A stretch of DNA of 64,000 nt from Bacteroidia bacterium (lineage in GTDB: Bacteria; Bacteroidota; Ignavibacteria; SZUA-365): assembly GCA_027493955.1 (NCBI GenBank), contig JAOSJT010000001.1:4450552-4514551 (forward strand), in the 5' to 3' direction. Below, piece by piece: positions 1,305 to 18,654 of the stretch (the first letter of the stretch is position 1; each line of letters begins with the position of its first letter). The notes beneath the pieces were generated by a model. That model was given only the letters and a program-made list of their open reading frames with translations. It ran no database searches and had not been told where the DNA came from. The position numbers and the translations under genes were made by a program.

Positions 1305-2819
1305 CTAGTGAGCATGACCGTGTTCCGGCACACTGCCGGAAAGCGATGCAAGCCGTACCAACTGAGCGCCTCTGTTTACGATACGCTCTCCTGCGTCAAG
1401 GCCGTCAAGAACCTCCACATAGACCTCGCCATAGCGTCCGGGCTTGACCCTCCTGCGCTCAAAGGCCTCGCCCTCTTTCTGCACATACACGATATGCACG
1501 CCGTCGCCTTCATCGATGATCGCCGAGCGCGGAACCGCAAGTACAGGCTGTGCGGAGCCGAATTCGATGCGGGTGTCGGCGTACAGACCAATGGAAAGCG
1601 CCTTTCCGGGATTGTCGAATTCGAATGCCACGTACAAGGTTCGGGTTGCCGGGTCAAGGACCTTGCCCGTGGACAGCAGGCGTCCGTTCAGAGCACTGAC
1701 TCGATAGGGTGTATCAAATCCCTCGGCTTCGAACCACGCGTCCGAAATGTTGCCCGCAGCGGACGCATGCGGTGCCGGGAGACGGGCGCTGAGCACCAAC
1801 CGCGAGGGATCGGCGAGAACGAATAATTGTTGTCCCGCAGTGATATGTTGGCCGGGACGCACGTTGATCCGTTCCACGATGCCGCTGATGGGCGCAGTAA
1901 TACGGAGTGTGGCGTCGGCGCTGCCGGCTTCCCATGATGCGGATTTTTTCAACAAGTCATACCCCGCGCGTGCGGCATCGTAGCGGTGCCGCGCCGTCTC
2001 GAGGCGTTTCACGGAAACAGAACCGTCTGCATGCAGACGTTGGGCGCGTTCAAAATCGGCTTCCGCATCCAGGTACTCTGCACGCACCTGCGCCAGACCG
2101 CTTATATTGCCCGGATCAGGTGAGAGCGTGGCAAGCACACGGCCTTTATTGACCCAGGTTCCGTGTGTGGGAAGTTCGGAACCCGGCCGTACGAGCAGGA
2201 TGCCGTTCACAGGAGCGGCGATGTCGACCATTTTTCCCGTCGGGGCGAGCAGCTCTCCGCTCACGGACACAGAGGGATTTACCGGATGCATGGCCGCCAC
2301 TTCGGTGGAGAAGTCATCGTTCCATTGCTGCTCCTTCAGAAACGTGATCGTCGCACTCGCGTCGGCCTGGTGTTCTTCTCCCTCCCCATGGGCATGTTCC
2401 TTCTGAATACGGACAACCGGCAGTGCGCAGGTGTCGATGAATGCAGCATCGCGATACACGAGTTGCACTGTATGCGCTCCCTCGCGGGCAAAGCGATGAC
2501 GGATGGAGTAGATGCCGGGGCGATGCGCGCGGGAGACCACGGTTTCGACAGTGCCGCCATCGGGTCCGGTGACGAGCAGCGCGACTTCGCCCTGTGAAAT
2601 CGGAGACCAGTCCGAAATCCTGGTCAGATGCGTGAGAAAGACAATGTCGGCGGGGCCGTGCGGGACGGGATACTCGATGAAAATTTCCAGACTGTCCGTC
2701 CATCGGGTAACGACCACCGACTCTTCGTGCGCGTGGTGATCGTCATCATCATGTGTATGTGTTGTGCATGCCGCGAAACACAGCAGCGGCAGAACAAGAA
2801 AAAGCGATCTGAAGTACAT
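1305..2819 (-). CDS. Efflux RND periplasmic adaptor (CusB/CzcB-like), His-rich lipoprotein
   Basis: Membrane-fusion protein (504 aa) bridging the RND pump and the TolC-like channel. MYFRSLFLVLPLLCFAAC is a lipoprotein signal ending in a lipobox, so Cys18 should be lipidated. A His/Asp-rich stretch (THTHDDDDHHAHEE) follows directly. A second His-rich linker (HAHGEGEEH) sits near residue 145, and the protein ends EHGHAH, so candidate metal-binding patches occur at both ends. The middle carries the barrel-sandwich and alpha-hairpin region (GKMVDIAAPVNGIL, then ITAPISGIVERINVRPGQ). I chose ATG 2819 because GGAG lies 7 nt upstream and it gives a clean signal; ATG 2837, one base after the channel gene's stop, is the alternative. 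The longer frame extending to 2981 would overlap the channel gene and is not believed. Confidence 0.92.
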   Translation of the reverse strand: MYFRSLFLVLPLLCFAACTTHTHDDDDHHAHEESVVVTRWTDSLEIFIEYPVPHGPADIVFLTHLTRISDWSPISQGEVALLVTGPDGGTVETVVSRAHRPGIYSIRHRFAREGAHTVQLVYRDAAFIDTCALPVVRIQKEHAHGEGEEHQADASATITFLKEQQWNDDFSTEVAAMHPVNPSVSVSGELLAPTGKMVDIAAPVNGILLVRPGSELPTHGTWVNKGRVLATLSPDPGNISGLAQVRAEYLDAEADFERAQRLHADGSVSVKRLETARHRYDAARAGYDLLKKSASWEAGSADATLRITAPISGIVERINVRPGQHITAGQQLFVLADPSRLVLSARLPAPHASAAGNISDAWFEAEGFDTPYRVSALNGRLLSTGKVLDPATRTLYVAFEFDNPGKALSIGLYADTRIEFGSAQPVLAVPRSAIIDEGDGVHIVYVQKEGEAFERRRVKPGRYGEVYVEVLDGLDAGERIVNRGAQLVRLASLSGSVPEHGHAH

Positions 2820-2838
2820 GGGAATCTCCGTTGTCATA

Positions 2839-4104
2839 TCAATTCGTTTCCTGAAGCTTAAAAATGGAGCCACCCGCCGCATATTCGAGCCTGAAGGCGG
2901 CGCGAAGCATGGATGCCCGCACAGCGGAGCGCAGTTCCGCGTTGTCGATATGTGCGCGTATTGCGTCGAGAAATTCGACAAGGGAAAATTCCCCCTCCCT
3001 GTACGCGGTGGTTGCGGCGGTTACAAACCGGGCCGCTTCGTCTTCGTCTGGGAAGCGGAGCTCGGCGGCCTGATCCTGTAGTTCCCGAATGGTCGCGACA
3101 CCGCCCTGTATTTCGAGAGCGATACGCTGTTCGAGTTCCCGGATTTGTGCAAGCAGACGCGCTTCATCCGCCACGATAGCTCGCGAGCTGCCCTGATCGC
3201 GGTGAAACACCGCGAGCGGCAGCGAAACCGTAAACACCGGTCCCCGGAAATCATCCGATTGCCTCTTATAGCCTCCTCCAAGTCGTAGCTTATCCATCCA
3301 CTGTGTCCCGATCCACGCACCTCGCCGGCGCAGTTCTTCCTGTTCGGCGCGCAACGCTTGCAGATCAGCACGTCGCTCCAGCGCTGTCGCTTGCAACGCG
3401 GCGAGCTCAGGAGCGCCGTTGAGGACCTGCGGAAGCATGAGCCGACGCGCTTCGAGGGCATTCAGGGGTAATGCCATCAGCAGAGCGAGTTCGGTTTCCG
3501 CTTCGCGGACAGAGGCGGACGCTTCGGTATGCCGCCAGCGCAGCCGTGATAGCTCGGTGCGGAGCCGCTGCTCCTCATACGCGGAGATATCACCCTCCCC
3601 GGAGCGTCGTGCTGTCGTGCGGTCGAGGGAGCGCAACACCGTCTCCATCTCGCGAAACGAATTCTGCATTTCCCGTGCCTCCCACAGGCGTATGAAACCG
3701 TCGCGAACATTGTATGCGAGTGCTTCAAGACTACGAGTACGGCGATGGGCCGCCGCGCGCACGGCGAAGTCGGCCGCGCCGATGCGCTTCCCTCTGGTCA
3801 GAAGGGAAAAAAACGGATAATCTACGGCCAGGGTCCACTCGGACAGAGAGGCACCCTTGTGATGTAGTTGCTCTATGGAAAAGCCGGCTTCCGGATTCGC
3901 ATACAGGCCGGCCTGCTCTCGCTCGGCATGGGCTATGTCGAGAAGGGCATCCTGGCGGCTCGTCTCATAAGACGCACGCATCGCAACGTCAACCGCATCG
4001 CGAATTGTCATTGCTGTCGGTATGTCGGCCGATTGAGAAGTCGCGATCCCCGGCAGGATCAGAAAGTGTAGTATGAAAGCGCACAGCCGGATATGCTGAT
4101 TCAT
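2839..4104 (-). CDS. TolC-family outer membrane efflux protein (CusC/CzcC-like)
   Basis: Outer-membrane channel subunit (421 aa) of the metal efflux complex. A signal peptide (MNQHIRLCAFILHFLILPGIATSQ) is followed by two repeats rich in long alpha-helix (IRDAVDVAMRAS..., then LQATALERRADLQALRAEQE), the usual OEP pattern of coiled-coil hairpins. Each half also holds a strand segment, for example NPEAGFSIEQLHHKG and MDKLRLGGGYKRQ. The start at 4104 is preceded by GGAGG at good spacing; the upstream in-frame extension contains no signal and is rejected. It directly precedes the adaptor gene (1 to 19 bp depending on the adaptor start), so channel, adaptor and pump form one operon. Confidence 0.92.
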   Translation of the reverse strand: MNQHIRLCAFILHFLILPGIATSQSADIPTAMTIRDAVDVAMRASYETSRQDALLDIAHAEREQAGLYANPEAGFSIEQLHHKGASLSEWTLAVDYPFFSLLTRGKRIGAADFAVRAAAHRRTRSLEALAYNVRDGFIRLWEAREMQNSFREMETVLRSLDRTTARRSGEGDISAYEEQRLRTELSRLRWRHTEASASVREAETELALLMALPLNALEARRLMLPQVLNGAPELAALQATALERRADLQALRAEQEELRRRGAWIGTQWMDKLRLGGGYKRQSDDFRGPVFTVSLPLAVFHRDQGSSRAIVADEARLLAQIRELEQRIALEIQGGVATIRELQDQAAELRFPDEDEAARFVTAATTAYREGEFSLVEFLDAIRAHIDNAELRSAVRASMLRAAFRLEYAAGGSIFKLQETN

Positions 4105-4192
4105 TGCGGAAATCCTCCGTAATAGCATCACTGAAATGATCCGGAAGTGTAATCCCGGACAGTAGATTATGTGGGAAGGTGAGACCGGTTGA

Positions 4193-4609
4193 TCAGGTAA
4201 GGGCGGGAGGAGGAAGATTTGCAGCGCGGCGTAGAAGTTCCTCACGCACGGCGCTTTGGGGAGGGGTAGTCGGGAAGGGAAGTATCTGCCGGACGAGGTC
4301 CGGGCGCGTATCGGCCAGAAGATTCAGGAGAAAGGTGTCGCAATACGCGGGATGGTCGGGTATTTCGGAAGTGCCGGATGAACGAGTGAGCGCAGTCGCG
4401 GTCATCTGCAGGAACAGATCGACGGGCTGATGATCGTGACTGTGGGGTTCGTCGGAGTGCTCGTGCGGATGCTCGTGCGGATGCGATGCGTGCTCGTGAT
4501 GAACGGTTTCCAGATGCGCGTGATGCCGCTGCGCCATCAAACCCATCACGGGAACGATGACTGCGAGCAAAAGGCGGAGTATCCTGAAACTGAAGCTTGC
4601 ACTGTGCAT
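4193..4609 (-). CDS. Small His-rich secreted protein at head of metal-efflux operon
   Basis: A 138-aa protein I do not recognise as a named family. The start MHSASFSFRILRLLLAVIVPVMGLMAQ reads as a signal peptide. Directly after it comes a histidine cluster (HHAHLETVHHEH, HPHEHPHEHSDEPHSHDH) with about 14 His in 40 residues, as expected for a periplasmic metal-binding or metal-sensing protein. The C-terminal half is ordinary and ends in a short alpha-helical segment. It precedes the channel gene by about 90 bp on the same strand and is probably the first gene of the efflux operon. The start is uncertain: no clear ribosome-binding site is visible at 4609, and in-frame ATGs lie upstream at about 4651 and 4687. 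A metal chaperone role like CusF is an inference from composition and position only; there is no CusF fold signature. Confidence 0.7.
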   Translation of the reverse strand: MHSASFSFRILRLLLAVIVPVMGLMAQRHHAHLETVHHEHASHPHEHPHEHSDEPHSHDHQPVDLFLQMTATALTRSSGTSEIPDHPAYCDTFLLNLLADTRPDLVRQILPFPTTPPQSAVREELLRRAANLPPPALT

Positions 4610-5030
4610 GAAAAAAAATACGCAGGATATTTTATTCAGACAAGTGAATTGCATCGTATATGAATCGATCTCCGGATTCGCATCCAACGAACACTTGCAA
4701 TTCTTCGCAACGGTTTGGCGCGGGAAGACGGCTCACAGAGCAGAAGTACTATCGTTGTGTGGAAACGGAAAGGCGCAAAGTCGCTCTCGGCTCATTCACG
4801 GACGAGGTTCCGCCCTGGAAATTGACCGTGGCTCGATGGAGCGGCTCAGGAGACCGTCGTCCGGGATCCATGCTCCTCAGTATGCCGTCCCCAAACTGTT
4901 ACAAAAGGCAGGAAGTCTCCTCGCGAAGGTCAGCGCGGTCTGTGTGGAGGCAACGCTTCGTCAGCGCCTCCAACGGAAGCGCTGACGCACGAATCGAAGA
5001 GAAAGGACGCATGTTCCGCCATAACAGTTT
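4610..5030. other. Intergenic region upstream of the metal-efflux operon
   Basis: Holds no convincing gene. It must contain the minus-strand promoter of the efflux operon and the 3' end of the TPR-gene transcript, for which the hairpin at 4959-4987 is the candidate terminator. I could not identify a MerR- or CopY-type operator by eye. Confidence 0.5.
4959..4987 (-). terminator. Terminator-like hairpin after the TPR gene
   Basis: Perfect 9-bp inverted repeat CGTCAGCGC / GCGCTGACG with an 11-nt loop, 44 bp beyond the TPR gene stop. There is no long U-tract, so it could be a processing or stability hairpin instead of an intrinsic terminator. Confidence 0.5.
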
Positions 5031-7010: not shown

Positions 7011-7685
7011 ATGTCACTCTTTGCCGGAATACTCATCGGATTCATTCTCGCCCTTCCTCCGGGAGGGATAGTGCTTGTCGGAATGAATCTCGCGATGCAG
7101 GGCGGATTTCGCCGCGCGGTTCCGTACGCATGGGGGACCATGCTTGTGGATACCGCGTATGCATTGCTTGCGGTACTCGGTGCCGGTGTCGTCGTTCATG
7201 CCTACAAGAGCGTGGTGGCTTCCCTTCCCGTTCTGGTCATCGGCATGCAGGCGGTTATCATTACGGCTCTGCTCGGATACGGACTCTATCTTTTCCTTCG
7301 CAGGACCCCGACGCTCACACGCGATGCGAACGGCGGGTTTGACACAGGGAGGTTGCATACCCGAACCCGCGGCAAGGCACCCTTTCTGCTCGGCGTGGGG
7401 CTCAATATCTCGAATATTTTCAGTCCTACCTTCCTTGCGGCACTGGCGATTGTGGCAACGCAGGCGCACGCATTCGGCGTCAGACCGGGAAATACGTTGG
7501 ACGCGGTTCTCTACGCAATCGGCTTCGGTATCGGCAACACGCTGTATATGCAGATCGGAATGAAGCTCGTCGAAAAATACACAAGCCGTCTGCAACCGCG
7601 CCATCTGCTCGGAGTTCAGAAAATCGCCGGCATCGCCTTCGCCGCTATCGGCGGCATGCTGTTCGTGTATGTGGTGCAGCAATGA
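7011..7685 (+). CDS. LysE/RhtB-family translocator
   Basis: Integral membrane exporter (224 aa) of the LysE superfamily, whose characterised members export amino acids. The N-terminal family motif is LALPPGGIVLVGMNLAMQGG (usual form G-P-x-x-hydrophobic), followed by about six hydrophobic segments, including VVASLPVLVIGMQAVIITAL and IAGIAFAAIGGMLFVYVV. A charged loop (RRTPTLTRDANGGFDTGR) lies near the middle. The ATG at 7011 is chosen because GGAGG precedes it at 5-6 nt; the frame is open back to 6939 without a better signal. Its stop overlaps the next start (ATGA), so it belongs to the activase operon. Here it may move a small polar product of that pathway, but the substrate is unknown. Confidence 0.85.
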   Translation: MSLFAGILIGFILALPPGGIVLVGMNLAMQGGFRRAVPYAWGTMLVDTAYALLAVLGAGVVVHAYKSVVASLPVLVIGMQAVIITALLGYGLYLFLRRTPTLTRDANGGFDTGRLHTRTRGKAPFLLGVGLNISNIFSPTFLAALAIVATQAHAFGVRPGNTLDAVLYAIGFGIGNTLYMQIGMKLVEKYTSRLQPRHLLGVQKIAGIAFAAIGGMLFVYVVQQ

Positions 7686-9409
7686 AAGCACAGGAAATGG
7701 AATACCGATCCGACACGGCCTTCCCACGCGTGGATGGCATGAATGGAAGTCATCCGGCGTCCGCGCGTTGCCATCGGGAAGTGAAGAGCGAGCATTATCG
7801 TCAACCCCTGCAAACGCCGTTCACAAGGTCCGAGCGGGACCATGTGACGCTGCTCTTCGGAGGATTGACGTTCGCGCATGAGCGCCTGTTCAAGGCATTG
7901 CTCGAGAGCAGGGGATTCCGGGTCTGTGTACTTCCCACACCGGTGCTGGCGGATTATCAGACGGGTCGTCAATACGCAAATAACGGATTCTGCAATCCGC
8001 TGTACTTCACCGGCGGAAGTTTGATCGCCTACCTCCGGAACAAGGAGCGGGAGGGCCTGTCGCGTGAAGAAATCTGCCGGAGTTTCGTGTACGTGACGTC
8101 CCGGTCCTGCGGTCCGTGCCGGCTGGGGCTGTACGAGCAGGAATACCGCAATATTCTCCGCAACGCCGGCTATTCCGGTCTCAGGGTGTTCGCGTTTTCC
8201 GATACGGTATCGCTCCGAACGGGGAACAGCGACGAGGGGTTGCCCTTCGATGTGCATTTCTATACCAATCTGTTCAGCGCGGTGATGCTTGGCGACATCC
8301 TGAATGATCTCGCGAATCGCACGCGTCCCTTTGAGCGTGAACCGGGCGCTACGGACAGGGCATGGGAGGAGTCCATTCGATTTGCAGAGGAGCGCCTGCG
8401 TAACAGGCCGCGCTTGAACGTATGGATGGAACGACGATTGCCGTCGTGGCTGCGGGCACCGTTGGAGATCATCGGACGCGCCGTCTCCTGGGTGATGGAC
8501 GCCCGATTTTTTGGTGTGATCCTGCATGCACGCAGACAATTCCTCGGTGTGCGCATCGATCCTTTCCGCGTGCGGCCGGCGGTAAAACTGATCGGGGAGT
8601 TCTGGGCACAGACGACGCTCGGCGACGGTAACTTCCGCGCGCATAGTTTTCTCGAACGCCACGGCGCCGAAGTCGTTGTCGAGCCGGTCACGACCTGGGT
8701 ACTGTATTTGTTGTTCGAAGCCGATCAGAAGCTTCGATTGCAAAAGACACAGCTCCGCCATAATCGCGGTGAGGGTATACGGGCGGGTTTACGTTTTGTC
8801 GGTCGCATGCTGTTGCTGGGTACCAAGTCGATGCTCCCGCGTATAGCGGAAATGCTGGTGCGCGCGAAATACAATACGATTCGGCTTCTGTTCCGCGGTG
8901 TGCCTGATCCGCTGCCGGACATCTACGAACTCGCCCGGCTCGCCGGGGAATACTACAATCCGGCATTGCTGGGCGGCGAAAGCCACATGGAAGTGGGGAA
9001 AACCCTGTACTACACGCAGCGCAAACGGGCGCATATGATTGTGTCCCTGAAGCCGTTCGGATGTTTGCCCAGCGGCATGTCGGACGGCGTACAACCGCTG
9101 GTGCGGGCGCATCATCCCGACACGCTGTATCTGTCGATTGAAACATCCGGCGAGGGGAGCACGAACGCGCAGAGCCGCATGCTCATGGTTCTCAATACGG
9201 CGCGCGAACGCGCAGAGCGGGAGAATGACGCCGCACGAAACTCACTGCGCGAATCCCATGCACGTGCGTCGGAGCGCATCGATAATTACAGCCGCGACGC
9301 GCATGCATTGCTCCGCCTTCGGGCTCGGGGAGTGTACGCCTGCCGCGCCGCGAGCGAACTCGCTTCCCTGCGCCACGTAACGCCATCAGGCAGGAGTACC
9401 ACACGATGA
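7682..9409 (+). CDS. HgdD-like (2-hydroxyacyl-CoA dehydratase D-component type) protein, partner of the activase
   Basis: Cytoplasmic protein (575 aa) matching the C-terminal domain of the large multidomain activase proteins and related to the HgdB/HgdD dehydratase subunits that bind an iron-sulfur cluster. Conserved cysteines are NGFCNPLYFTGG (about residue 100), SRSCGPCRLGLYEQEYR (about 142) and SLKPFGCLPSGMSDGVQ (about 458), candidate [4Fe-4S] ligands. The C-terminus is Arg-rich and low in complexity. Start ATG overlaps the LysE stop, and its own stop overlaps the activase start (ATGA both times), implying translational coupling. In PlsA/Ger-type proteins this domain follows two ATPase domains and DUF2229 in one polypeptide; here it is a separate gene placed first. 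A role in reducing or rearranging an acyl-ester lipid is inferred from that domain match. Confidence 0.8.
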   Translation: MKAQEMEYRSDTAFPRVDGMNGSHPASARCHREVKSEHYRQPLQTPFTRSERDHVTLLFGGLTFAHERLFKALLESRGFRVCVLPTPVLADYQTGRQYANNGFCNPLYFTGGSLIAYLRNKEREGLSREEICRSFVYVTSRSCGPCRLGLYEQEYRNILRNAGYSGLRVFAFSDTVSLRTGNSDEGLPFDVHFYTNLFSAVMLGDILNDLANRTRPFEREPGATDRAWEESIRFAEERLRNRPRLNVWMERRLPSWLRAPLEIIGRAVSWVMDARFFGVILHARRQFLGVRIDPFRVRPAVKLIGEFWAQTTLGDGNFRAHSFLERHGAEVVVEPVTTWVLYLLFEADQKLRLQKTQLRHNRGEGIRAGLRFVGRMLLLGTKSMLPRIAEMLVRAKYNTIRLLFRGVPDPLPDIYELARLAGEYYNPALLGGESHMEVGKTLYYTQRKRAHMIVSLKPFGCLPSGMSDGVQPLVRAHHPDTLYLSIETSGEGSTNAQSRMLMVLNTARERAERENDAARNSLRESHARASERIDNYSRDAHALLRLRARGVYACRAASELASLRHVTPSGRSTTR

Positions 9410-12400
9410 AAGCGCAATCCGTATTTATCGGCATAGACATCGGCAGCATTACCGTAAAGGTTGTCGCGTATGACACGGCCTCGCGTGTGCTGCTGTGGAA
9501 CGGGTACAGACGGCATCACGCACGGCAGCTCGATACCGCCGTACAGCTTCTCGCCGATGTCCATGCGGCCCTGAGTTTACCGCCGCATACTCCTGTCGCG
9601 GTCACCGGTTCCGGGGCACAGCAAGCGGCCGGACAGGAAGATCTCCCGTATGTGCAGGAGGTGAACGCACTGATGCGGGCGGTGCGCACTCTGCATCCGC
9701 AAGCACGCAGCGTCATCGAACTGGGCGGGGAGGACGCCAAAATGGTGAGCATCGATCTTCTGGACAACGGCGAAACCGGAATGCTGCCGGTCATGAATGA
9801 AAAATGCGCGGCCGGTACGGGAAGCATGATCGATCGCATGATGGCGCGTATGGATCTCACTCCTGAGCAAGCTACGGGCATTGCGTACCGGCCCGGAGCG
9901 CGACATCCTATTGCCGCGAAATGCGGGGTGTTCGCCGAAACCGATGTCGTCGGATTGCTGAAAAGCGGTATTGCCCGCGAGGAACTCGTGTGCGCTCTCT
10001 TCGAGGCGATCGTGCAGCAGAATCTCGCGACGCTTGCACGAGGGCGCACTCCGCTGCCGCAGGTTCTGCTGCTCGGCGGTCCGCATCTGTACTATCCAGC
10101 GCTCGTGCAGTGCTGGAAGCACCGACTAAGCGACCTCTGGAGGGCACGTGGCATTGAGTACTCAGCCGAAAACGAATCTGCTGTGCTCGTGCCGGCTTAT
10201 GCGCTTTTTCTGCCCGCCATTGGCGCGGTGCTGGAGCTGGAACGGCTCGGCAAGTGTAACGAGCAAACGGAAAGTATTGAAGAGCGGCTTCGGCGTGCAA
10301 GTATGCGTGATACCGGAAAGCTGCGATCCCGTATTGCATTTGCATCGGACAAGGAATACCGCGACTTCGCGCAACGCTACACACCCGAAGAGTTCCACGC
10401 GCCCGACCTGTCGCGGCAGGCGGTTGTCCGCGTGCATCTCGGAATTGACTGCGGTTCCACATCCATCAAGGGCGTGCTTCTTGACGAGAGCATGCAGGTG
10501 CTGCGGAAGGATTTCTCATTTGCGACACACGATCCCATCGAGGATGCCCGGCGCATGTTGTTCCGGTTGCGCGAGAGCGTTGAGGAACAGGGAGCGGGAC
10601 TGGAAATTCTGTCTGTCGGCACGACCGGATACGCCAAAGACGTTCTTGCCGCTGTGCTGCACTCGGACATTTCCGTCGTAGAGACCATTGCGCACAAGGA
10701 AGCAGCGCATGCGTATTTCCCGGATGCGGATGTGATATGCGACGTCGGCGGTCAGGACATCAAGGTAATGTTGCTGCGGGAGGGAAGCGTGGCGGATTTC
10801 CGTCTGAACACGCAATGTTCTGCCGGGACGGGATACTTTCTGCAGACCGTCGCGGACCGCTTTGACACCAGCATCTATCGCTTCGCGGAAGAGGCGCTTG
10901 CTGTCGAATATGCTCCGGAATTCAGCGCGGGGTGTACGATTTTTCTCCAGTCGGATATCGTCAATTTCATGCGCGCCGGGTACACGGCGGGTGAGATCAT
11001 GGCCGGAGTCACGCAGGTGCTTCCGGTTAATATCTGGGTGTATTCCGCGCGTATCTACGATCTGCCGTCGGCGGGGCGCGTGTATGTTTTGCAAGGTGGC
11101 ACGCAGCGCAATCTCGCAGCGGTTCGTGCGCAGGTGCAATACATCAAGGATGCATTCAGCTACAGCGGTCTGGAGCCGGTCGTTCATGTGCACCCGCATC
11201 CCGCGGAAGCGGGAGCCATTGGTTGTGCCATGCTTGCAGCGGCGGAGGCAGCGGGAAGCGGCGGCAGCGGTTGGGTCGGCTTCGAGGCGCTCGGGACCTT
11301 GCACTGTGAAACCGAGCAGTCCGAGCGTACGCGATGCCGCGGTTGCGCAAACCGCTGTGCCCGCACGATCATACGCGTACACTCCGCGCAGGCCGGATGG
11401 GAGTGCGGTGGCGAAACGCTCATCATCGCACCCTGTGAGCGCGGCCGCACCGACGATGCCCTGGTAGCCAGGCGCATTCTGTTGCAGGAAAAAGAGAGAA
11501 ACATTCAGGCACCGAATTTTGCCCGCGAAATGGAGGAGATGGTGTTTTCGCCAAAGTATATAGCGCAGGAATTGCGCCAGATGTATGGAAACAGCGATGC
11601 GGCGCCCGAAGACGGAGTCATTCCTCCCGGACTCTGCATCGGTATTCCCCGCGTCCTGAATTTTTATTCCTATGCGCCGCTGTTCATTGCATGGTTTCTC
11701 GCGCTGGGATTCCGGGAGGATCAGATTCGCATTTCCAGAAGCACGACGCGAAGAATGAGCAGCACGGGGACTGCCCGTGCGACAATGGATCCTTGCTTTC
11801 CGGCAAAGATCTGCTTTGCCCACATAGAGGAACTGCTCCGGGAAGGCGAGGCATGCGGCGGTGAATCATGGATATTCTTCCCCGCCATTCTACGTTTACC
11901 AGGTGCCATCGCCGATTCTGTGGACAGCATGACATGCACGGTTACCGCTGTGATGCCAGAAGCGGTCAACGCCGCGTACATGCTCGAAGGAAATGATTTC
12001 GCCAGACGGGGCGCACGGTATCTGCACCCATTTCTTTCCATGGAGTCGCTCAAAGCATTCAGCGCCACCATGGCTTCCAGCTTCGAGACCTTGCTCCCAT
12101 TTTCGCGCGGCAGCTTCCGGCAGGCGGCGGAGCGCGCATGGGCCTTGCAGGAGCAGGTGATGCGAACGATACGAAGCCGGGCCCGCGCGACGCTGGAGTC
12201 GCTGGAGGCGGAACGGAAGGTGGGACTTGTCCTGCTGGGGCGGCCGTATCACGCCGATAACGGTCTTAACCACGGGGTCCTTGAAGCGCTGCATCGGATG
12301 GGCTTCCCGCTGTTCACGGCGGAGACCCTCCCGCGTGACGAAGAGATACTCGAGCGCTTGTTTGGCGGCCATGAGCAGTCGGTGCGTGACGTGTGGCCGA

Positions 12401-12717
12401 ACCCGTACAGTGAAAACAGCAGCAGGAAAATGTGGGCGGCAAAATATGCGGCGCGTCATCCGAATCTGCTGGCCGTGGAACTGTCCAATTTCAAATGCGG
12501 GCATGACGCGCCGACGTACTCCGTGGTCCGTGACATTTTTCAGGCGGCGGGCAAGCCCTTCTTCTCCTTTCTCGATCTCGACGAAAACACACCGCGGAAT
12601 ACTCTGAACATCCGCATTGAAACGATACAGCATTTTCTCAAACAGTGGTGTGGGAAGCGGAATTTTCTTCCCCCGCAATTGAAGCAAAAGGAGGCGGTAT
12701 GTGTGCAGCAGCAATGA
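9406..12717 (+). CDS. Acyl-CoA dehydratase activase: two BcrAD/BadFG ATPase domains plus DUF2229
   Basis: ATP-driven electron activase (1103 aa), a protein class that uses ATP to push one electron at very low potential into a partner iron-sulfur protein. The first ASKHA domain opens FIGIDIGSITVKVVAYD, with ELGGEDAKM and the cluster-binding EKCAAGTGS near residue 137. The second opens at about 344 (HLGIDCGSTSIKGVLLD), with DVGGQDIKVML and NTQCSAGTGYF near 470. From about 740 comes DUF2229: CIGIPRVLNFYSYAPLF, MDPCFPAKICFAHIEELL, GLVLLGRPYHADNGLNHGV, NFKCGHDAPTYS. This is the domain order of the N-terminal three quarters of PlsA (plasmalogen synthase) and Ger (glycerol ester reductase). Only the HgdD part is encoded separately, upstream. 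No second dehydratase subunit pair is nearby. Function as an ether-lipid enzyme is inference; the activase assignment is firm. Confidence 0.88.
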   Translation: MKAQSVFIGIDIGSITVKVVAYDTASRVLLWNGYRRHHARQLDTAVQLLADVHAALSLPPHTPVAVTGSGAQQAAGQEDLPYVQEVNALMRAVRTLHPQARSVIELGGEDAKMVSIDLLDNGETGMLPVMNEKCAAGTGSMIDRMMARMDLTPEQATGIAYRPGARHPIAAKCGVFAETDVVGLLKSGIAREELVCALFEAIVQQNLATLARGRTPLPQVLLLGGPHLYYPALVQCWKHRLSDLWRARGIEYSAENESAVLVPAYALFLPAIGAVLELERLGKCNEQTESIEERLRRASMRDTGKLRSRIAFASDKEYRDFAQRYTPEEFHAPDLSRQAVVRVHLGIDCGSTSIKGVLLDESMQVLRKDFSFATHDPIEDARRMLFRLRESVEEQGAGLEILSVGTTGYAKDVLAAVLHSDISVVETIAHKEAAHAYFPDADVICDVGGQDIKVMLLREGSVADFRLNTQCSAGTGYFLQTVADRFDTSIYRFAEEALAVEYAPEFSAGCTIFLQSDIVNFMRAGYTAGEIMAGVTQVLPVNIWVYSARIYDLPSAGRVYVLQGGTQRNLAAVRAQVQYIKDAFSYSGLEPVVHVHPHPAEAGAIGCAMLAAAEAAGSGGSGWVGFEALGTLHCETEQSERTRCRGCANRCARTIIRVHSAQAGWECGGETLIIAPCERGRTDDALVARRILLQEKERNIQAPNFAREMEEMVFSPKYIAQELRQMYGNSDAAPEDGVIPPGLCIGIPRVLNFYSYAPLFIAWFLALGFREDQIRISRSTTRRMSSTGTARATMDPCFPAKICFAHIEELLREGEACGGESWIFFPAILRLPGAIADSVDSMTCTVTAVMPEAVNAAYMLEGNDFARRGARYLHPFLSMESLKAFSATMASSFETLLPFSRGSFRQAAERAWALQEQVMRTIRSRARATLESLEAERKVGLVLLGRPYHADNGLNHGVLEALHRMGFPLFTAETLPRDEEILERLFGGHEQSVRDVWPNPYSENSSRKMWAAKYAARHPNLLAVELSNFKCGHDAPTYSVVRDIFQAAGKPFFSFLDLDENTPRNTLNIRIETIQHFLKQWCGKRNFLPPQLKQKEAVCVQQQ

Positions 12718-13544
12718 CGCAGCCCATGCCGGCATGGCGCCACGTCCTCATCACAGGCGCGGCGCAAGGTCTCGGCAGAGCGCTGTCCGAGCTCTGTGCC
12801 CGGGCCGGAATGACCGTGAGCATGCTCGATGTCAATGCCGAAGTGCTTGCCGCGGCATCGGACGCGCTTCGAAATGCCGGAGGACGTATACAGCCCGTTG
12901 TGTGCGATGTGCGGGACGGCGAATCCGTGCGGAGCGCTTTCGAAGCAGTGCAGATCAGCGCTCCGGCTCCCGACGCGCTCATTTGCTGCGCGGCCATCGG
13001 CGACAGTGAATGGAAGCGGAGCTTCAGCGCCGAAGTGCTGGAAGCGGTTCTCAACGTCAACGTCCTCGGCATCGCGCGCTGCATGGAGCACTGCCTGCCG
13101 TTGATGCATGCGGGCGGGGGTGGCGACGTTGTGCTGATCAGCAGTCTCCTCGATGCGCGGGGCTACCCTGGCACGGCCAGTTACTCGACGGCCAAGGCCG
13201 CCTTGCGCGCAATGGCCGACAGCGCCCGCGTGTTGCTGCGCTCGAGCGGAATCAGAGTGGTGCTCGTGCGGCCGGGTTTCATGCGCACGGCGATGACGGA
13301 AAAAAATGCGATCAGCATGCCCGGTATGCTTACACCCGAGCAGGCGGCGGAACGCATACTTCGAGGTGTTGCGAAGGCAAAGGCCGTCATTTCCTTCCCG
13401 CGTTGGCTGGCTATACTTGCTGAGCTTGCGCGGCTGCTTCCTCGAACTCTGTACGAACACATAGTCCGCATGGGCATGGTGAAGGACGGTGAAGCGGAGG
13501 ATCTCCACTACTCTCCGGCCCGGACACACGGAGGTGTATCATGA
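12699..13544 (+). CDS. Short-chain dehydrogenase/reductase (SDR)
   Basis: NAD(P)-dependent oxidoreductase (281 aa). Cofactor motif ITGAAQGLGRA (T-G-x3-G-x-G) at about residue 15, the D-x-N-A segment MLDVNAEVL, the catalytic serine in LISSLLDARG and the Y-x3-K pair in SYSTAKAAL near residue 162. The C-terminal part (ERILRGVAKAKAVISFPRW, then LAELARLLPRTLYEHIV) is basic and amphipathic, the pattern of SDRs acting on lipid or long-chain ketones at a membrane; acyl/alkyl-dihydroxyacetone-phosphate reductases of eukaryotic ether-lipid synthesis are SDRs of this general type. Start 12699 is set by AGGAGG upstream and overlaps the activase by 19 bp; the frame is open back to 12645. Its stop overlaps the ABC ATPase start (ATGA). 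The substrate is unknown. Confidence 0.88.
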   Translation: MCAAAMTQPMPAWRHVLITGAAQGLGRALSELCARAGMTVSMLDVNAEVLAAASDALRNAGGRIQPVVCDVRDGESVRSAFEAVQISAPAPDALICCAAIGDSEWKRSFSAEVLEAVLNVNVLGIARCMEHCLPLMHAGGGGDVVLISSLLDARGYPGTASYSTAKAALRAMADSARVLLRSSGIRVVLVRPGFMRTAMTEKNAISMPGMLTPEQAAERILRGVAKAKAVISFPRWLAILAELARLLPRTLYEHIVRMGMVKDGEAEDLHYSPARTHGGVS

Positions 13545-14197
13545 CTCCAGGAACCGTTCTACTTGCCGCAAACGGCATAAGTAAATCCTACGGAAAGCGA
13601 CGCATACTGCACGATGTCAGTCTCGAAGTACGCGCGGGCAGCATCGTCGGGATATGCGGGGAAAACGGTGCCGGAAAATCCACGCTCCTGCGCATTCTCA
13701 TGGGGCTGCTGCCGCCGGACACGGGTACGGTATCCTGCGGAGTGCGCACGGGATACTGTCCGCAACAGGTGCAGCTCTTCGACCAGCTCACAGTTGATGA
13801 GCACTTCCGCTACTATGCCTGTGCCTACGCCACGCGCGTAAATGGCAGGTCGTTGCGTTCCGCTACGGAACTGAAACGGCGCACGGATGAGCTGAAGGAC
13901 ATGCTCCAGCTTTTTCCCGCGAACGGACAGCAGGTACGCGCACTGAGCGGAGGGACACAGCAGAAGCTGAATCTTGCCCTGGCGTTACTGCACGATCCGC
14001 AACTGCTGATTCTCGACGAGCCGTATGCGGGTTTCGACTGGGAAACCTACCTGCGTTTCTGGGACATTGCCGGTGAGTTGAGCGCGGCGGGCAAAGGGAT
14101 TCTTATCGTATCACATCTCGTATTCGATCACAAGCAATTCAACACACTGTGCACGCTTGCACACGGAGCACTGACATGTTCTTCCACAGAATACTGA
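13541..14197 (+). CDS. ABC transporter ATP-binding protein
   Basis: Nucleotide-binding subunit (218 aa) of an ABC-2 type exporter. Walker A GENGAGKST, Q-loop YCPQQVQLFDQLTV, signature LSGGTQQKL, Walker B LLILDEPYAGFD and the H-loop histidine in IVSHLVF are all present, so the enzyme should be active. It is short for the family, with no C-terminal regulatory extension. It overlaps the SDR by 4 bp and the permease by 22 bp. By position it powers export, flipping or membrane insertion of something made by the upstream enzymes. Confidence 0.92.
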   Translation: MTPGTVLLAANGISKSYGKRRILHDVSLEVRAGSIVGICGENGAGKSTLLRILMGLLPPDTGTVSCGVRTGYCPQQVQLFDQLTVDEHFRYYACAYATRVNGRSLRSATELKRRTDELKDMLQLFPANGQQVRALSGGTQQKLNLALALLHDPQLLILDEPYAGFDWETYLRFWDIAGELSAAGKGILIVSHLVFDHKQFNTLCTLAHGALTCSSTEY

Positions 14198-14937
14198 CAG
14201 GGGTGCGTATGACGGCGCGGGAAATCCTGCGTTCGCGCTATATTCTCGCATTGGTGGTCGCTATGCCGCTCATTTTCTACCTGATGATTTACGTCACATC
14301 AGCCGAACGTGATATACCGGTACTGTTCGGGATGGTGTCCGATGCGCGCGAGTATATGGTAAACGAGCGCGACGAATCGCTGTTGTTTTTCGGCACCGGG
14401 GCAATTGCGCTCATTGCGGCCTTCATCGCGCTGAAGCTGACGCAGCGGCATCACGACAGCAGTCGCAGGTTGATACTCTGCGGTTACGGAACGTCGGAAG
14501 TGCTGTTGTCCCGCGTCGGGACGCTGCTGCTTTCCCTGCTTCCGCTCGGCTGCTATGTGGGTTTGATGCTATTATTCTTTTTTCAGCCCGACAGACTGCC
14601 TGCGGTGATCGCTGGTTTTGTGCTTGCCGGCTTCGTGTATGCGGCGTTGGGTGCGCTGATAGGGGTGCTGTTTCACAATGAGATCGAGGGAGTGCTGGCG
14701 GTACTGCTTATCGCCAATATCGATGCGGTCTGGATGCAGAATCCCATCTACTACACAGCGACGGAACACAGGGAAATAATCCGTCTACTGCCTGCGTATT
14801 TCCCGACGCAAACGAGCATGATAGGCGCCTTCACGCAGGAATCGGTGCTGGCCGCCATGGCAATGAGTTTCCTGTATGGTTCGATTCTTCTCTTTCTCGC
14901 CCTGCTTATCTATCGCAGAAATATGCGGATTGTGTGA
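14176..14937 (+). CDS. ABC-2 type permease
   Basis: Membrane subunit (253 aa) paired with the preceding ATPase. About six hydrophobic segments: LALVVAMPLIFYLMIYV, ALIAAFIALKL, LLLSLLPLGCYVGLMLLFFF, VIAGFVLAGFVYAALGALIG, EGVLAVLLIANIDAV and FLYGSILLFLALLIY. The large external loop between the first two resembles other ABC-2 permeases. Start 14176 has GGAG 8 nt upstream; an in-frame ATG at 14209 is possible. It is the last gene of the operon; the next gene is on the other strand. The substrate is not evident; lipid is a guess from the operon context. Confidence 0.85.
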   Translation: MFFHRILTGVRMTAREILRSRYILALVVAMPLIFYLMIYVTSAERDIPVLFGMVSDAREYMVNERDESLLFFGTGAIALIAAFIALKLTQRHHDSSRRLILCGYGTSEVLLSRVGTLLLSLLPLGCYVGLMLLFFFQPDRLPAVIAGFVLAGFVYAALGALIGVLFHNEIEGVLAVLLIANIDAVWMQNPIYYTATEHREIIRLLPAYFPTQTSMIGAFTQESVLAAMAMSFLYGSILLFLALLIYRRNMRIV

Positions 14938-17229: not shown

Positions 17230-18654
17230 CTAGAGTGCCTTTCCGTCAGGGACGATGGAGAGCTGGTCCAGCTCCGCATCGTTGCTGTGGGCCTCTTCCT
17301 CCGCGCGTGCGAACTTCACGCGAAGCAGCAGCACGAAACCGAGGATGAAATAGGCGGAGAGAGACAACACGGCAAGACGGTAGCTGCCGGTGTACTGCAG
17401 TGCGAGCCCGAAGAACAAAGGACTCAGCCAGCTCGTGCCGCGCTCACTGATTTCGTAAATGCCGAAGTACTCCGCCTCGTGTCCCGGCGGTATCATGCGC
17501 GAAAAAGCGGCGCGACTCAATGCCTGACTGCCGACGAGCACCAGCGCTGTAACGGTAGCCATGATGTAGAAATCCGCTTTACTCTGCAGCGGTCCGTAGG
17601 CATACAGCGTGATGAGTATGTACACGATCAATGAACACAGTATGCTGCGCTTCGTTCCCCATCGGCGGGCCAGACGCTCGAACAACCAGGCGCCGAGCAC
17701 ACCCACAAACTGCACCATCAGTATGATTTCCGCCAGATCCTGCATGCCCAATCCCACTTCCTGCTGTCCGAATTGAGTCGAAATGGACGTAACCGTCTGT
17801 ATGCCGTCGCTGTACAGGAGAAAAGCGACAAGAAAGAGGAGTGTATGAGGGTATTTTCCTAAACTGCGGAGCGTGCCTTTCAGTTCTCTGAAGCCCGCAG
17901 TGAGCAATAACCCTCCCTCGGGTCTCCTGCGCTGCGTCCTGCGCGATGGGAGCAGCATCAATGCGCCACCGCCGAAGAGCAGCCACCAGATGCCGCAGCT
18001 GGCAAGAGCGATGCGCGTAGCGTCCATTATGCCGCAGCTGGCAAGAGCGATGCGCGTAGCGTCCATTTCGCCGATACCCATATCTCCGGCGCCGGCGAAG
18101 AAGACGTACTGAAAGACAAGCAATATCCCGCCACCGAGATAGCCCAGTCCCCAGCCCGCGGAAGATATCCGGTTTCTGTCCTCCGGCCTGCACACGTCCG
18201 GAAGGAAGGCGTTGTACAGCACATCCGACGCTCCGAAGCAGATATTGCCGATGAGAAAGAGCGCTCCGCCAAGCAGGTAGTCGGACGCGCCGACGGCAAG
18301 CATCGCGATGACGCTTGCACCGCCTCCGAGCATGCTCACTGTAAGCAGCGGTTTTTTCAGACGGGTGAAGTCCGCTATCGCTCCGATCAGCGGCAGCAGG
18401 CAAATCTGAAGAAAGACGGAGATGGAAATCAGATACGGATAATATGCGCCGGGATGCACGGCGATACCGAATGGATGCAGCATTCCCTCGGCACCCGCCG
18501 CCACCTCGGCGATGTCGGTGATGAAGGGACCGAAAAACACCGTCACAACCGATGTCGGGAAAACAGCGGCGCCGAAATCGTACACACACCATCCGACGGA
18601 CTCCCGTCCAAGTCGAAAGATGCTTCCTCTTCGAAGAGCATTAACCGCACTCAT
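17230..18654 (-). CDS. MFS transporter of the UMF1/Atg22-like group, with internal 13-residue duplication
   Basis: Membrane transporter (474 aa) with about 12 hydrophobic segments. The N-terminus WCVYDFGAAVFPTSVVTVFFGPF and the cytoplasmic-loop motif GAIADFTRLKKPLL are typical of the UMF1 (Atg22-related) family; the second half shows GTKRSILCSLIVYILITLYA and RAAFSRMIPPGHEAEYFGIYEI. Substrates of bacterial members are mostly unknown. Oddity: MDATRIALASCGI occurs twice in direct succession near residue 200, from a 39-bp in-frame tandem duplication (17990-18067) falling next to a predicted helix, which may or may not be tolerated. Start 18654 has AAGGAG 8 nt upstream. It lies 141 bp after the TonB-dependent receptor gene. 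Confidence 0.88.
   Translation of the reverse strand: MSAVNALRRGSIFRLGRESVGWCVYDFGAAVFPTSVVTVFFGPFITDIAEVAAGAEGMLHPFGIAVHPGAYYPYLISISVFLQICLLPLIGAIADFTRLKKPLLTVSMLGGGASVIAMLAVGASDYLLGGALFLIGNICFGASDVLYNAFLPDVCRPEDRNRISSAGWGLGYLGGGILLVFQYVFFAGAGDMGIGEMDATRIALASCGIMDATRIALASCGIWWLLFGGGALMLLPSRRTQRRRPEGGLLLTAGFRELKGTLRSLGKYPHTLLFLVAFLLYSDGIQTVTSISTQFGQQEVGLGMQDLAEIILMVQFVGVLGAWLFERLARRWGTKRSILCSLIVYILITLYAYGPLQSKADFYIMATVTALVLVGSQALSRAAFSRMIPPGHEAEYFGIYEISERGTSWLSPLFFGLALQYTGSYRLAVLSLSAYFILGFVLLLRVKFARAEEEAHSNDAELDQLSIVPDGKAL
17990..18067. repeat. 39-bp perfect tandem duplication inside the MFS gene
   Basis: Two exact 39-bp copies (17990-18028 and 18029-18067) in direct succession, adding 13 codons in frame. 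The absence of differences between copies points to a very recent event or strain-level variation. Confidence 0.95.

Follow-up and report, generated by a model that had tools for sequence, protein, structure and literature searches.

A second, strongly diverged gene pair related to PlsA-type enzymes in a six-gene operon of an Ignavibacteria genome

The plsA-plsR system of Clostridium perfringens consists of two genes (PMC8788747, PMC12838417), whereas pls is a single gene in the tested strains of Enterococcus, Lactococcus and Bifidobacterium; both forms yield plasmalogens in Escherichia coli (PMC12838417). Listeria and Enterococcus carry plsA-plsR orthologues and make plasmalogens, and a TetR/AcrR regulator adjoins the gene in facultative anaerobes (PMC9702350). 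The glycerol ester reductase Ger, with two activase domains, makes alkyl ethers (PMC13274423, PMC11150832). PlsA/PlsR and Ger produce (vinyl) ethers in E. coli (PMC12838417, PMC11150832), and sequence alone does not at present separate PlsA from Ger (PMC13274423). Here we analyse a 64,000-nucleotide stretch of an Ignavibacteria genome (hereafter, the window), in which six overlapping open reading frames (ORFs) on the + strand form one operon at positions 7011–14937. Two of its genes encode R, a reductase/dehydratase-like, PlsR-like subunit of 575 residues (7682–9409, + strand), and A, a subunit of 1103 residues (9406–12717, + strand). The complete genome of 5.24 Mb holds all four of its BcrAD domains in two loci, namely this window pair and a canonical R-A pair (C1:945355–950573; L030:8856–14074).

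The A subunit contains two PF01869 (BcrAD_BadFG) domains and PF09989/DUF2229, as an initial annotation of the window had read it and as Pfam found. Activase 1 spans residues 5–285 approximately, activase 2 residues 345–611, and the DUF2229 reductase half residues 745–974 and beyond. Eleven conserved cluster cysteines are located at 134/173, 471/510, 644/647/651/677 and 797/844/1031, with each PF01869 stretch carrying its own cysteine pair. A has homologues in the PDB, and its model (pLDDT 75) matches the activases of 2-hydroxyacyl-CoA dehydratase (HAD) and benzoyl-CoA reductase (BCR) with an E value of 4e-15.

The R subunit gives no family match over threshold in Pfam or NCBIfam, and the HgdD-like domain that the initial annotation assigned to it was not recovered as such; its reductase nature emerges by other routes. 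Profile comparison with hhalign aligns R to the C-terminal portion of fused A+R chains with a probability of 98.3% (E 2e-14, improving to 5e-33 with more rows), and returns no profile-level match to E. coli YjiM, an annotated dehydratase subunit. R was modelled with AlphaFold2 (pLDDT 77); the top Foldseek match of the model is the double-cubane cluster protein DCCP (E 5e-5 to 8e-4), and chains of HAD, BCR or DCCP fill the first eight ranks by Z score (7.6–9.7). Because identity to these chains is just 8–12%, the likeness is one of shared fold only. R has three cluster cysteines, Cys104, Cys146 and Cys461. Cys143 is invariant in canonical pairs, but is an unlikely cluster ligand, since it is Ala in the orthologous operon of G005, a genome of another genus of the same family, and is mostly replaced by other residues in fused proteins. 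The 11 cysteines of A and the three of R are identical in the window pair, in canonical pairs and in the Listeria, Fusobacterium, Collinsella and Haliovirga proteins. Together, the profile, fold and cysteine evidence supports R as the reductase part of the enzyme, and the activase-activase-DUF2229-reductase domain set is complete over A and R.

Phylogenetic trees were built with PlsA-type references taken from large 'plasmid' records of Listeria, Fusobacterium, Collinsella and Haliovirga. The Listeria reference is one chain, as is that of Collinsella, which a TetR regulator adjoins; Fusobacterium animalis has two genes, A then R, of 975 and 404 residues. Window A aligns to these references over 97–99% of its length with E values of 3e-96 or better, while the identity of the window proteins to them is just 24–28%. 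In the trees of whole A+R, of activase 2 and of the reductase half, the window and canonical pairs are sister to the PlsA-type references and not inside them, and in the activase 1 tree all of them share one clade; the starred supports for this placement are 97–100. The activase domains of both pairs lie apart from stand-alone HAD activases (YjiL, Sphingopyxis, Azoarcus), and the pairs are also apart from another fused group in the same class. The initial annotation had named clustering with 2-hydroxyacyl-CoA dehydratases as an outcome that would speak against its proposal; the trees, in which PlsA-type references were used, argue against clustering with the stand-alone activases of those enzymes. 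On sequence grounds, full-length homology, the 14 cysteines and the sister-clade position thus support the proposed link of R and A to PlsA-type enzymes.

Several more distant arrangements were noted alongside. Fused activase-reductases of 1420–1470 residues form a separate clade in the same class (L038, L146–L149), away from the PlsA-type references, and one genome, G038, carries both this fused type and the R-before-A type. A relative on a Paraclostridium plasmid (L161:2629–6477) adjoins genes for a Crp/Fnr regulator and an ATP-binding cassette (ABC) transporter, and in the alignment it shows none of the reductase cysteines. In Monoglobus the parts of the enzyme are three separate genes.

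Like PlsA-PlsR of C. perfringens and the PlsA-type proteins of Fusobacterium, the window pair has its parts spread over two genes, and it has all 14 cluster cysteines in common with the PlsA-type references. It differs from PlsA-PlsR in the reversed order, R then A, in the length of R (approximately 575–600 residues in the window and canonical type against approximately 400 in Fusobacterium), and in that its carrier genome has haem-copper oxidases. Ger of Thermotoga and Desulfatibacillum, compared by its published description, has two activase domains (BB) like window A, the rest of the protein being PlsA-like (PMC13274423), but is a single chain, whereas the window pair is two genes with R before A. 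DCCP, the 2-hydroxyacyl-CoA dehydratases and benzoyl-CoA reductase have a fold in common with R and with the activase domains; HGD-D proteins, by contrast, show no recognisable sequence similarity to R, and the activase of A is a fused double domain. The canonical R-before-A pair has the same genes, order and cysteines as the window pair.

The R-before-A family is large. A scan of named genomes returned at least 562 relatives, the best 80 of which belong to Acidobacteriota, Ignavibacteria, Zixibacteria, Latescibacterota, Planctomycetota and Neomarinimicrobiota, with a few metagenome-assembled genomes filed elsewhere. In approximately 73 distinct loci from at least five phyla, being those with both genes on the stretch (82 rows including duplicates), R is always upstream of A on the same strand; the sole A-before-R case belongs to another clade. 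The gaps between R and A are variable, at times with one or two ORFs between them. The initial annotation had taken the parts of PlsA to form one chain, which is wrong for the founding member, the plsA-plsR gene pair of C. perfringens (PMC8788747, PMC12838417), and had offered the split, reversed layout as a novelty; the two-gene form is in fact the founding one, and R before A is the rule in this family. Its argument that the pair is not a frameshift of a fused gene holds, and such a frameshifted gene is ruled out by the R-then-A order, opposite to that of fused proteins.

Some loci of the family show particular surroundings. Squalene/phytoene synthase genes are located beside the canonical pair in some Ignavibacteria, and near R in G029. 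An ORF of approximately 406 residues (L036:11193–12410) separates R from A in G056 and G047, two genomes of the Ignavibacteria genus that also includes G029, and the ORF of G056 bears a sorting domain for type IX secretion. Solibacter usitatus, which lacks ElbD, makes ether lipids, and PlsAR homologues have been proposed for it (PMC10087280). In the genus of G431, a genome titled Candidatus Solibacter, R of the R-before-A type occurs whole or in part in seven of nine genomes, and a shorter R-like gene occurs in eight of nine, besides it or in its place, so that either R type may be the acting one in this genus.

The canonical R-A pair was found in each of the 12 family genomes searched, with canonical R approximately 41–45% identical to window R, and the window copy as a whole is approximately 40% identical to the canonical pair. 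The window-type copy occurs in two of these 12, the window genome and G005, which keeps the whole six-gene block in order with 60–81% protein identity; the comparison of neighbours in relatives, suggested in the initial annotation, thus finds the operon conserved in another genus. Between the two genomes, five of the genes (the permease is not included) show a nonsynonymous divergence (dN) of 0.24–0.33 and a near-saturated synonymous divergence (dS) of 1.4–1.7, giving dN/dS ratios of approximately 0.14–0.22. Five of the six operon genes are under purifying selection. The window type was not seen among 297 genomes in the phylum of the Solibacter-titled genome, 199 in that of the Neomarinimicrobiota genome, 294 in that of the Phycisphaerae genome, or 16 in that of the Zixibacteria/Latescibacterota loci. 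Among the matches listed, the top identity to the window type outside G005 is 47% or less over matched stretches.

The window-type copy has changed strongly. Among positions with an invariance of 97% or more across canonical pairs, 26 of 135 in R and 102 of 373 in A are altered in both window-type copies, that is, 19–27%, while every cluster cysteine is intact. In the trees the window pair falls outside all of the canonical pairs and has a very long branch, but its grouping with the canonical pair of its own family is not rejected (approximately unbiased test, p 0.138). It may stem from a family-level duplication with fast change, from an older origin or from transfer.

The other four genes of the operon encode candidate partners. 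Gene 1 (7011–7685, + strand) encodes a LysE-like membrane protein of 224 residues, 65% identical to the orthologue that opens the G005 operon; the match to LysE is weak, as PF01810 scores 21.1 bits, under the cut-off of 25.6. Downstream of A lie genes for a short-chain dehydrogenase/reductase (SDR) family oxidoreductase of 281 residues (12699–13544, + strand; PF00106, E 9e-42; 60–62% identical orthologue in G005), whose PDB relatives are alcohol-dehydrogenase SDRs, an ABC transporter ATP-binding protein of 218 residues (13541–14197, + strand; PF00005, E 1e-29; 67%) and an ABC-2 family permease of 253 residues (14176–14937, + strand; PF12698; 81%). Of the SDR, ABC-2 exporter and LysE-like exporter named in the initial annotation, the first two are thus good Pfam matches. 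The ORFs and coordinates also bear out its six-gene operon, in which neighbouring ORFs share 4 nt at 7682, 9406 and 13541 and longer stretches at 12699 and 14176, and the start codons at 7011 and 14176 are backed by the orthologous operon in G005. The unit is closed, since the neighbouring genes on either side lie on the opposite strand; promoter and terminator scans gave nothing beyond chance expectation. The four accessory genes were found with no fetched canonical pair, and the same set is present in G005. In the window genome, genes for a GDSL lipase, a PIG-L deacetylase, glycosyltransferases and a polysaccharide flippase follow the canonical pair, and several family relatives have genes of like sizes downstream of theirs.

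The explanation that we favour, somewhat above even chances, is that R and A, as two subunits, are predicted to make up an ATP-driven Fe-S ester reductase of the PlsA type whose substrate has changed, probably to a specialised exported lipid. BCR and HAD work by ATP-driven electron transfer from an activase-bound [4Fe-4S] cluster to the clusters of the reductase. By the same mechanism, the two activase domains of A would jointly bind a [4Fe-4S] cluster, whose potential would fall on ATP hydrolysis; the electron would then move on to the clusters of DUF2229 and of R and there reduce a carbonyl via a ketyl-type radical. Given the kinship with PlsA and Ger, the likeliest substrate would be the carboxylic ester of a glycerolipid, converted to a vinyl or alkyl ether as by PlsA/PlsR and Ger. 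The divergence of the window pair suggests that it most likely acts on another acyl ester than the housekeeping copy. From the gene company only, the SDR would act as a follow-up reductase on an intermediate (an aldehyde or a ketone), and export of the product, from the inner leaflet or from the cell, would fall to the ABC-2 pair together with the LysE-like protein. A lipid role for the window pair is thus what we infer by analogy, and this pair may well use another substrate than PlsA does.

Several observations weigh against this explanation. The support for a lipid role of any R-before-A pair rests on kinship with PlsA and Ger, and the PlsA-type references were chosen for what the literature says of their genus (Listeria) and for their architecture, and not through proven accessions. 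In a scan of 104 neighbours of approximately 40 canonical loci, no family was found in more than four and no common lipid gene appeared; because no neighbour family recurs, the canonical pair seems to stand alone, without recurring partner genes. The Paraclostridium and Monoglobus relatives make non-lipid substrates likely in parts of the wider superfamily. Such reductases are, moreover, usually oxygen-sensitive, and three places in the window genome match haem-copper oxidase subunit I, which makes oxygen respiration likely.

A rival explanation is a different product. A reductase of the PlsA clade could have been recruited for a secreted metabolite that is not a glycerolipid (for example an acyl ester, a polyketide-like or an amino-acid-derived compound), with R and A reducing an ester or thioester. 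We hold this to be rather improbable, though it fits a very divergent copy that was seen in two of the 12 genomes of the family but in no other among approximately 800 further genomes sampled in four phylum-level searches, that is accompanied by an SDR and two kinds of exporter in both genomes, and that has kept its cluster cysteines while approximately a quarter of its other invariant positions changed. The operon, however, has no acyltransferase, ligase, carrier or synthase gene, and in the trees the reductase half and the two activase domains of the pair keep their place with PlsA-type proteins. A further proposal is put forward tentatively, at low confidence: the window copy may represent a new type of biosynthetic locus, in which a PlsA-type reductase in a haem-copper-oxidase organism, with dedicated SDR and exporters, would make a specialised ether- or aldehyde-type lipid or another ester-derived product, distinct from the membrane ether-lipid synthesis of the canonical pair.

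The remaining explanations fare much worse. An ordinary 2-hydroxyacyl-CoA dehydratase or benzoyl-CoA-reductase-type system, serving amino-acid fermentation or aromatic degradation, would share the fold superfamily and the activase family, but we judge it very improbable. PF06050 has no match in the complete 5.24-Mb genome, which extends the earlier remark that no dehydratase alpha/beta pair is nearby, and there is no orphan activase; R lacks a profile match to YjiM, and the activase domains go with the PlsA type and not with the YjiL, Sphingopyxis and Azoarcus activases. The absent PF06050, the missing YjiM match and the activase trees largely rule out ordinary amino-acid fermentation. Scarcely credible is a decaying, functionless duplicate of the canonical pair, which the long branch and the many altered positions might suggest. 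All six frames are open with the overlapping start/stop architecture intact, the block is kept in another genus at 60–81% identity with dN/dS far below 1 for five genes, and all cluster cysteines are retained; this conservation refutes decay.

Elsewhere in the window, a perfect tandem duplication of 39 bp (17990–18067) is located within an Atg22-like major facilitator superfamily transporter gene (17230–18654, - strand), with the result that MDATRIALASCGI is present twice in the protein. At 1305–4687 on the - strand, genes for an HlyD-type fusion protein, an outer-membrane efflux protein and a small His-rich protein stand in a row, and look like a metal efflux set.

The split two-gene layout is already known, and the R-before-A order is shared by the loci of a large family, in Acidobacteriota included. 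What is unusual is a second, strongly diverged pair with its own accessory genes besides the canonical pair, and the main interest lies in a widespread sister family of PlsA together with this diverged, accessory-equipped second copy. The branched tetraether lipids of Acidobacteriota serve as climate proxies. The R-before-A family is a concrete candidate for the enzyme that converts esters to ethers in such bacteria because of its fixed gene order and complete set of cluster cysteines, and the diverged window copy with its accessory genes offers a natural test of the substrate determinants in this enzyme class.

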